The notes beneath the pieces are model-generated. The model had not been told where the DNA came from and ran no database searches. It saw only the letters and a program-made list of their open reading frames with translations. A stretch of 64,000 nucleotides of DNA from positions 889,001-953,000 of the forward strand of contig NZ_WTYU01000001.1 in the NCBI RefSeq assembly GCF_009827615.1, in the 5' to 3' direction. Numbering within the stretch: the first letter of the stretch is position 1; each line of letters begins with the position of its first letter. This DNA comes from Allopontixanthobacter confluentis (GTDB taxonomy: Bacteria > Pseudomonadota > Alphaproteobacteria > Sphingomonadales > Sphingomonadaceae). The translations under genes were made by a program, and so were the position numbers. Shown piece by piece: positions 6,468 to 16,150 of this stretch.

Positions 6468-6504
6468 TTGCCAAGCAGCAATGATTGGAACATAATAAGA
6501 ACAA
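6468..6504 (+). promoter_or_regulatory. imuA promoter overlapping LexA box 1
   Basis: The SOS operator is GAAC (6488-6491), seven bases ATAATAA, then GAAC (6499-6502), matching the alphaproteobacterial LexA consensus GAAC-N7-GAAC (equivalently GTTC-N7-GTTC). A candidate -35 TTGCCA (6468-6473) and -10 CATAAT (6491-6496) are 17 bases apart, so bound LexA would cover the -10 element. Transcription would begin close to base 6503-6505. LexA control is inferred from the site; lexA itself is not in the window. Confidence 0.85.
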
Positions 6505-7431
6505 GTGAGTCGTTCCATTATGCATCCAGACATTTCACCCCCTCCTGCCGCATCGCCTGCCGATGATATTGTGACGCTTCCTGCCGAGATGCGGGGCGGG
6601 TTAAAGGGCGGGGTGCGTCTGCGGCCATCGGCGCGCTGGAAACCCGGGGTTGCTGCAGGTGCAATCCATTCGGAAATTTTCGCTTCCGGCCACGAAGCCG
6701 CCGGCGCAGCACTGGCCATAGCATTGGCGCAGGACGCAGCGGCAGCAGGAAAATCCAGTTCGCCAGATGCCAGTTCGCCAAATTTTGGCGCGCTGGATGA
6801 AATCATGGATCAGCGTTCAGTCCTGTGGGTTCAGGACCGGGCATCTGTCCGCCTGACGGGGCGCCCCTATCGCCATGGCCTGCCGCAGCATCTGCGCCAC
6901 CGGATCATTCATGTGGTGGCGGAAAAGGCGGAAGATGTGCTGTTTGCACTGGAAGAAGGCCTGCGCTGCCGCGACCTCGCCTTTGTTATTGGCGAACTGG
7001 CAGGAAACCCCAGGGGGCTGAACTTCACTGCATCGCGCCGGCTCAGTCTGGCTGCTGAAAGACATGGCGTGCCGCTGTGGCTGGTGCGGGTGGATGCAGC
7101 CCATGACCTGTCTTCTGCACGGATGCGGTGGGATGTGCGGTCTGCGCCATCTGCTGCGCCGCAGTGGAATGGCGCGGCGCCCGGCATACCGTGCTGGCAC
7201 GGCGAATTGTTCCGTTCGCGCAGCCATGTTCCCGGCCACTGGATATTGCGTGATGACCCTGCTGCTCTTTCTGCATCCAGCCCGGCTGCCCCACCGACCG
7301 ACATAACTGATGACAATACAAGCCATGATAATACCGCAAACGAAAATGACGTCAGCTTCGACCAGCCCCGCCAGACGGGTTCTGTCGATCTGGCTCGCGC
7401 GACTGTCGGTCGATCGATGGCGGCTCTCTGA
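6505..7431 (+). CDS. imuA: ImuA, SOS mutasome accessory protein (RecA-related)
   Basis: A 308-residue protein in the position of ImuA, immediately upstream of imuB and under a LexA box. ImuA proteins are RecA-like but lack a functional ATPase; no Walker A motif is visible here. Recognisable blocks are SEIFASGHEAAGAALAIALAQ, VLWVQDRAS, GLPQHLRHRIIHVVAEKAEDVLFALEEGLRC, FVIGELAG and LTASRRLSLAAERHGVPLWLVR-like sequence. It helps assemble the ImuB-DnaE2 translesion complex. GTG at 6505 places the start two bases after the operator, exactly as for the radical SAM gene at 9971; ATG at 6520 is the alternative. The low-complexity C-terminal tail overlaps imuB. Confidence 0.85.
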   Translation: MSRSIMHPDISPPPAASPADDIVTLPAEMRGGLKGGVRLRPSARWKPGVAAGAIHSEIFASGHEAAGAALAIALAQDAAAAGKSSSPDASSPNFGALDEIMDQRSVLWVQDRASVRLTGRPYRHGLPQHLRHRIIHVVAEKAEDVLFALEEGLRCRDLAFVIGELAGNPRGLNFTASRRLSLAAERHGVPLWLVRVDAAHDLSSARMRWDVRSAPSAAPQWNGAAPGIPCWHGELFRSRSHVPGHWILRDDPAALSASSPAAPPTDITDDNTSHDNTANENDVSFDQPRQTGSVDLARATVGRSMAAL

Positions 7432-15600: not shown

Positions 15601-16150
15601 GGCAGATTACCAGACCCAGCGACTGAGCCTGAAAGCGCATCCGATGGCTTTTCTGCGGGCCAGCCTTGGCGAACGCGGCTTTGTGCGTGCGTGCGATCTT
15701 CGGAGCCGCAAGTTCCGTTCCATGGTGCAAGTGGCAGGCGTGGTGCTGATCCGCCAGCGCCCCGGCAGTGCCAAGGGGGTATGCTTTATTACGCTGGAGG
15801 ATGAGACGGGCGTCATCAATTTGGTGGTCTGGCCCGATCTGAAGGAAAAGCAGCGCAAGGTAGTGATGGGTTCACGCCTGATGGAAGTGCGCGGCAGGGT
15901 GGAATATGATGACGAGGTGATCCATGTCATCGCCGCCCATATGACGGATGCAACGCATGAATTGCAGCGCCTGTCTGATGATATGCTGAACGCCCCTGTT
16001 GCCCGCGGCGATCATTGCGGCAACCAGCAGCCTTCCACATTCACCCCGCGAGAGGATATTGACGCCATGCCGGGGGAACGCGAATGCGGATACCATCAGG
16101 GCCATCCGCGCAATGTCAGAATCATTCCGCGCTCGCGGGATTTCCATTGA
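12644..16150 (+). CDS. dnaE2: Error-prone DNA polymerase DnaE2 (ImuC)
   Basis: The 1168-residue C-family polymerase of the SOS mutasome. It opens with a PHP domain ([26 protein letters not shown]...), has the palm acidic motif [12 protein letters not shown] with D436/D438/D440, a helix-hairpin-helix region around [31 protein letters not shown], an OB fold ([29 protein letters not shown]) and ends with [15 protein letters not shown], the classic DnaE2 tail. Slightly longer than the usual 1030-1150. The start is TTG 12644 or GTG 12656; both sit at the udgX stop (12652-12654), so the genes are coupled. Expected to need ImuB for clamp access. Confidence 0.95.
   Translation: [1168 protein letters not shown]

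Follow-up and report, generated by a model that had tools for sequence, protein, structure and literature searches.

A LexA-boxed radical SAM/UdgX gene pair between imuA-imuB and dnaE2 in Allopontixanthobacter confluentis, with a putative clamp-binding tail on the radical SAM protein

Radical S-adenosylmethionine (SAM) enzymes, here abbreviated rSAM, have already been placed next to uracil-DNA glycosylases (UDGs) in the SOS response. The passages of PMC3765255 on DUF4130 tie this domain to SplB-like rSAM proteins and UDGs within the SOS network, while those of PMC8565304 on the COG1573-COG4277 pair predict it to belong to the LexA network of Bacteroidetes, interpret its UDG as a base excision repair enzyme and cite earlier reports of SOS-regulated UDG systems in Verrucomicrobia and Alphaproteobacteria. 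A UDG/rSAM pair under the control of LexA has been published before. Which companions the DnaE2 mutasome has is a live question in mutagenesis, and in PMC12926913, which surveyed the associations of DnaE2 in 2026, neither 'uracil' nor 'radical SAM' occurs in the main text. Here we analyze a stretch of 64,000 nucleotides (nt) from Allopontixanthobacter confluentis (contig NZ_WTYU01000001.1, positions 889,001 to 953,000 of the forward strand; the window from here on), taken from a genome of 2.93 Mb in 4 contigs. From its genes and boxes it looks to contain a mutagenesis block of SOS type: a LexA-boxed rSAM/DUF4130-UdgX pair separates imuA-imuB from dnaE2, which places dnaE2 directly 3' of udgX. 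A sequence-only reading of the window had presented rSAM and UdgX proteins as known neighbours whose operon fusion to dnaE2 is less described. The literature agrees: the LexA-run pair is published, and we found no description of a UdgX/rSAM junction with dnaE2, a tentative negative given that subscription papers lay mostly outside the search. Within the same tentative scope, no listed paper appeared to join the sliding clamp or a clamp motif with a radical SAM enzyme, and the term 'clamp' is absent from the main text of PMC3765255. The new lead is a conserved tail of predicted clamp-binding type on LexA-boxed radical SAM enzymes.

In the window, imuA and imuB follow one GAAC-N7-GAAC box, and the rSAM gene, DUF4130/udgX and dnaE2 follow another:

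6488..6502, + strand: LexA-type box GAACATAATAAGAAC, an exact GAAC-N7-GAAC match, 5' of imuA
6520..7431, + strand: imuA (ATG at 6520; alternative start GTG at 6505), an open reading frame (ORF) with a weak NF033429 match
7310..8917, + strand: imuB, with IMS, IMS_C and DUF6504 domains
9954..9968, + strand: LexA-type box GAACATATAAAGAAC, an exact GAAC-N7-GAAC match, starting 17 nt before the rSAM ATG
9971..11215, + strand: rSAM gene, family TIGR03916 (579.7 bits against a cut-off of 343.5)
11192..11206, + strand: codons of Q408-L-E-L-F412, a C-terminal beta-clamp-binding-type sequence motif
11212..12654, + strand: DUF4130 (TIGR03915, 218 bits) fused to UdgX (TIGR03914, 305 bits), both above cut-off
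12656..16150, + strand: dnaE2 (likely GTG at 12656; TTG at 12644 also possible), NF004225, 1367.8 bits against a cut-off of 939
8993-9928, - strand: alpha/beta hydrolase gene, between the imuA-imuB unit and the rSAM-udgX-dnaE2 unit

Both boxes are exact where the sequence-only reading had put them, and its gene order, with imuA-imuB behind the first box and a tight rSAM-DUF4130/UdgX-dnaE2 run behind the second, is confirmed by the family profiles, by the ATGA overlap common to the rSAM stop and the udgX start, and by the 1-nt gap between the udgX stop and GTG 12656, which is the likelier dnaE2 start of the two. ImuA matches NF033429 with 25.2 bits, below the cut-off of 150, and its identity is assigned mainly because of its place before imuB and of homologues in the same place. 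ImuB is weakly recognised as a Y-family-like protein (IMS 31.9, IMS_C 27.4 and DUF6504 27.1 bits, each above its Pfam gathering score). The nearest named relative among the matches listed is a metagenome-assembled genome of Erythrobacteraceae, whose rSAM is 97% identical.

The SOS control by two boxes that had been proposed from the letters alone stands in part. Both units are boxed and the rSAM box recurs widely, but the bare motif is weak, and we rejected its count as evidence: the window has three exact matches where shuffles expect about one (at least three were reached in 8 of 100 shuffles), its sites with at most one mismatch are at chance level (35 against 33.5 expected), and the whole genome has 92 matches against 59 for a reversed-pattern control. 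The rSAM box is convincing because of its A/T-rich spacer, whose opening bases are mostly ATA, its position relative to the start codon and its conservation. We measured the latter in 157 loci (80 from the family and 77 GTDB contigs, nearly all alphaproteobacterial) after removing three duplicates (L184, L186 and L197), beyond which no two rSAM sequences were identical and one pair (L238 and L242) reached 98.8%. A box lies at most 100 nt from the rSAM start in 152 of them (79/80 family, 73/77 GTDB), and exactly at -17 in 98, compared with a background of 250 in 22262 windows (about 1%) laid over the same loci with their rSAM boxes included. In 19 loci of Pseudomonadota outside Alphaproteobacteria, Caballeronia and Xanthomonas among them, CTGT-N8-ACAG, which we take to be the E. 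coli-type LexA box, was exact in 13, had one mismatch in 3 and was absent in 3 (background, 12 of 2158 windows). On the assumption that both operator types are LexA's, the one outside the class and the other inside, the rSAM gene therefore keeps a LexA-type box though its form differs. It carries a conserved LexA-type operator at its promoter and is a predicted LexA target.

The imuA box overlaps a -10-like CATAAT, 17 nt downstream of TTGCCA, and a promoter scan placed a sigma-70-like site there and none at the rSAM box. The rSAM box may also overlap a -10 element, leaving a nearly leaderless rSAM transcript; this suggestion comes from the position of the box, because of the two boxes the scan supported a -10 for that of imuA and not for that of rSAM. 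Elsewhere in the same genome, a GTTC-N7-GTTC box precedes lexA, and boxes precede radA, a PA0069-family rSAM gene, a DinB-like polymerase gene and an rmuC-like gene among 14 of the 92 matches, which were chosen by eye for inspection, mostly for A/T-rich spacers. The third exact match in the window (6388-6402, - strand) lies upstream of a divergent pyridoxamine-oxidase-like gene. The boxes listed for L085 and L088, two loci of the same genus, include none that corresponds to it, and we discounted it as probably due to chance.

The rSAM protein ends in ...EQLELFAA. This tail, like the 6388-6402 box, had gone unmentioned in the sequence-only reading. The clamp passages of PMC3716654 give the beta-clamp consensus as QL[S/D]LF and also describe six-residue forms; together with those of PMC10421592 they cover the role of the ImuB-clamp contact. 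We defined a strict motif (Q[LM]xL[FLW] or Q[LM]xLx[FLW] in the final 25 residues) and looked for it in 217 loci; the incomplete L171 was left out, and the remaining 216 proteins were merged to 165 non-redundant representatives. The strict motif occurs in 143 of these, compared with 2 of 1471 control ORFs (other ORFs of at least 200 codons from the same loci) and 1.8% of shuffled tails, and a loose motif in 162 representatives and 61 control ORFs. All 62 family representatives carry the strict form. Before merging, it was present in 189 of the 216 (family 78/80, class 13/14, GTDB 73/80, phylum/plasmid/phage 25/42), and most misses are near variants such as QFELF, QLQLI, QASLF and QLGFGF. Q408 and L411 are invariant in a 20-row rSAM alignment, where the linker is variable, and reach 90% conservation or more across 58 aligned sequences (57 of 80 rSAM relatives used). 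The AlphaFold model has a mean predicted local distance difference test score (pLDDT) of 84, with residues 407-414 below 50. According to sequence and model, QLELF is a consensus-like peptide of beta-clamp-binding type in an accessible tail, and a putative clamp site.

The same genome encodes a second LexA-boxed rSAM gene, of the PA0069 family (C1:1244632-1245731; L063, L380), with QMRLI at the end of its protein. Of 30 family loci, drawn from 51 genomes above cut-off, 28 have a box at the PA0069 rSAM gene and 24 encode a clamp-type tail, the latter a count over the final 20 residues that also allows I at the last place and has no control set of its own. Among the 12 radical SAM proteins of the genome (PF04055), a small number, the clamp-type tail is confined to the TIGR03916 and PA0069 members, and within the stretch checked only their genes are boxed. 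Another ORF, of 111 amino acids and unassigned family, follows a box with the same sequence as that of rSAM (C1:505182-505554; L061, L368). Three of 59 family genomes, its own included, contain a match to it, with a box at all three loci, and its protein ends in QSLPLFPDLDLRAA; its two relatives (L369 and L370) have no clamp motif, and we rejected it as a further clamp client.

Regarding distribution, the rSAM family was above cut-off in 100 of 149 family genomes, 18 of 289 from the class and 53 of 299 from the phylum (overlapping samples), and dnaE2 in 132 of the 149. The sequence-only reading had hinged on the udgX-dnaE2 link existing outside this genome, and the link is conserved: dnaE2 lies beside rSAM-udgX in 30 of the 149 family genomes, under 19 genus labels, as counted by eye from gene coordinates. 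Eighty family loci, taken from the 100 genomes above the rSAM cut-off, have udgX in 78 and dnaE2 in 22, and all but one of the latter (21 of 22) have imuB upstream. Across 31 linked loci the junctions are tight, the gap being at most 20 nt between rSAM and udgX in 28 and between udgX and dnaE2 in 27. In a tree built from 51 DnaE2 rows, which left out L151 and L191 (short DnaE2 reading) and 3 duplicates, the 30 linked rows need 2 changes; forcing them into one clade changed the log-likelihood by +7.65, with a p-value of 0.668 in the approximately unbiased test. A single origin of the junction is compatible with this tree, not proven by it. In one locus, L329 (G039), imuB-imuA and dnaE2 are divergent with a LexA-type box between them and rSAM-udgX lies elsewhere; its DnaE2 clusters with the linked ones.

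Other lineages bring the two units together differently. In family f159, 4 of 5 genomes (two genera) carry imuA-imuB-dnaE2 pointing away from rSAM-udgX, a single box lying between the two; Henriciella pelagia also shows this divergent arrangement. Divergent pairing of the mutasome with rSAM-udgX recurs in two other lineages. The pairing of boxes is genuine, and so is the junction with dnaE2, which is lineage-specific.

We favour, as reasonably probable, a reading in which SOS-induced, clamp-delivered lesion processing takes place beside the mutasome. Damage would lead to loss of LexA and to induction of both units. The rSAM enzyme would dock on the beta clamp through its QLELF tail and, together with DUF4130-UdgX, would process or mark damaged bases at the stalled fork, with UdgX presumably capping uracil or abasic sites; ImuB, ImuA and DnaE2 would then copy past the remaining lesions on the same clamp. 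What the sequence contributes to this reading is the identity of the genes, their tight junctions, the conserved boxes, a junction compatible with one origin and a consensus-like clamp peptide, and together these suggest that one stalled fork may receive both repair chemistry and error-prone copying. A wider claim is more tentative, with slightly less than even chances: SOS-induced rSAMs of the TIGR03916 and PA0069 families would form a class of clamp-tethered radical enzymes at stalled forks, one of them co-translated in Erythrobacteraceae and relatives with UdgX and DnaE2 as a process-cap-bypass unit on one clamp. Should both LexA-boxed families travel on the clamp, the SOS response would have an overlooked component in radical chemistry at forks. 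The tail offers a simple physical test of where the rSAM protein works, and the dnaE2 operon a system for asking whether an error-prone polymerase works at the same sites as a protein that traps uracil.

A number of observations weigh against clamp-delivered processing beside the mutasome. Clamp binding by the rSAM tail is a motif prediction, and the strict pattern was fixed after the first tails had been viewed. The strict form is rarer outside Alphaproteobacteria (the 25/42 of the phylum/plasmid/phage set, which itself has some alphas), it is missing from the distant relatives L310, L313 and L315, and the alphaproteobacterial L254 has no clear motif. It also matches an internal QLVLL at residue 154 of DnaE2, and is not found in the ImuB of this genome, where the segment Q432GELAF is a weak QxxLxF clamp-type match (similar segments occur in 28 of 36 ImuB rows, this one included). 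The association with the mutasome is patchy as well: 53 of the 80 family loci have rSAM-udgX without any other queried gene in the locus, and imu genes were not seen in 45 of 46 GTDB loci (L217-L263 minus L222), where divergent ones may be missed and 8 loci have less than 6 kb of upstream sequence. The f159 loci were selected because imu genes had already been seen there, and 4 of the 16 loci examined have them. Finally, on the rSAM tree, from which 13 loci with short downstream sequence and 3 duplicates were left out, the link label needs 15 changes (28.2 for shuffled labels), so that by this tree the dnaE2 link would often have been lost or gained. With 15 changes the rSAM tree does not settle the history of the link, for which the DnaE2 tree is more informative; the rSAM-udgX pair may have entered once between imuAB and dnaE2, and the arrangement may later have been exchanged many times for ordinary cassettes.

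These patchy associations would also be expected if the two units shared nothing except timing, that is, if two independent SOS functions in need of LexA adjoin and dnaE2 borrows the rSAM-udgX promoter, with no cooperation on one lesion. We regard this as quite possible, though short of probable. It agrees with the box that rSAM-udgX retains without dnaE2, with the frequent label changes on the rSAM tree and with the 20 unlinked dnaE2 loci (18 of the genomes carry rSAM above cut-off elsewhere, 2 do not). In 18 of these 20, imuA-imuB-dnaE2 runs on one strand, the others being the divergent L329 and a locus with imuB only, and 18 of the 20 have a LexA-type box in the locus. The tie between polymerase and rSAM-udgX pair that had been read from the window is accordingly not general: most rSAM-udgX loci have no dnaE2 beside them, and most unlinked dnaE2 genes sit in an imuA-imuB-dnaE2 run. 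Against mere coincidence of timing stand the three separate arrangements that unite the two units, the near-contact of udgX and dnaE2 kept in 27 of the 31 linked loci, and the tail of the rSAM protein, a putative docking site like that of ImuB, the hub of the mycobacterial mutasome in the clamp passages cited above.

Lesion processing on the clamp could alternatively give way to a scheme centred on UdgX, which would covalently cap uracil or abasic sites while DnaE2 bypasses or clears the crosslinks, uracil being the main substrate of the block. The window UdgX does carry the hallmarks: the GEQPG motif A, a KRRIH-type loop with the catalytic His, and HPSYLLR (HPSxLLR motif B). All 59 aligned sequences (58 of 67 UdgX relatives used) share GEQPG, Q325, R377, H379 (the crosslinking-type His), H445 and P446 without exception, and the UDG half superposes on MsmUdgX structures with Z of about 29 and about 40% identity; therefore its crosslinking machinery looks intact. 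The structure-match rows shown for the DUF4130-UdgX protein all fall in this half. A clamp motif in UdgX, found in 1 of 59 rows, was rejected. We nevertheless consider the UdgX-centred scheme unlikely. In Parabacteroides, a DUF4130 gene comes after that for rSAM, and no UDG is annotated in the 11-kb stretch covered (one locus, with an incomplete gene table), and PMC10359453, in its passages on UdgX-DNA complexes, names RecA-dependent pathways or proteases as possible means of resolving them. From this one locus, UdgX may be an addition to a core of rSAM and DUF4130.

It is more doubtful still that the QLELF tail is a degron or a conserved accident instead of a clamp peptide. Short motifs can mislead and this clamp site is predicted from one, but the excess over control ORFs (143/165 against 2/1471), tail variants that obey clamp rules (QLSLF, QMSLF and QLSLAF) and the similar tail of the LexA-boxed PA0069 family argue against a degron or an accident.

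The rSAM protein belongs to TIGR03916, presumably the same family as COG4277, and the label 'splB-like' used for it in the sequence-only reading is imprecise. Its CxxxCxxC (C69/C73/C76) is invariant in all three cysteines in our alignments, as are three further ones, C23, C48 and C57. The latter lie with H49 in a highly conserved segment (residues 22-61, model pLDDT below 50), perhaps an extra metal site, and an HhH-like (helix-hairpin-helix) segment was seen by eye near residues 343-357. Spore photoproduct lyase is absent among the best 50 fold-match rows of the protein; this leaves the SplB reading unsupported and does not exclude it. That the rSAM protein is a spore-photoproduct-lyase-like enzyme reversing ultraviolet thymine lesions is very improbable, since such a role would agree with LexA control but the protein is a TIGR03916 member, its profile matched no PDB chain at E 0.001, and its best-ranked folds, inconclusive for lyase membership, are other radical SAM enzymes (Z of about 15-16 over parts of residues 4-317).

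Relatives of the rSAM gene also turned up in viral and plasmid collections. Ten phage-collection records (H61-H70) carry one with less than 60% identity, a scan of viral contigs gave 2 rSAM loci, and phages or prophages may carry a gene of TIGR03916 type. Three plasmid-labelled records (NZ_CP077849.1, NZ_CP104448.1 and NZ_CP154629.1) measure 2.6-4.1 Mb, a chromosome-like size that suggests a wrong label.

Compared with the known systems, the block shares with the ImuA-ImuB-DnaE2 mutasome of Caulobacter and Mycobacterium all three genes, the LexA-type boxes and the imuA-imuB order, and differs from the ordinary mutasome in that an rSAM and a DUF4130-UdgX gene with their own box sit between imuB and dnaE2. 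Its UdgX has the UDG domain, GEQPG, the KRR(I/L)H-type loop with the crosslinking His and HPSxLLR in common with that of Mycobacterium smegmatis, from which it differs in being C-terminal to DUF4130 and encoded with rSAM and dnaE2. The LexA-controlled COG1573-COG4277 operon is described in the relevant passages of PMC8565304 with no mention of a dnaE2 junction or a clamp-type tail, both of which are present here. Finally, the rSAM tail is a consensus-like pentapeptide similar to those of E. coli Pol II (QLGLF) and UmuC (QLNLF), and it lies near the C-terminus as in Pol II, the UmuC motif being internal according to the motif descriptions in PMC3716654. Unlike Pol II and UmuC, the protein that bears the clamp-type tail here is a radical SAM enzyme.

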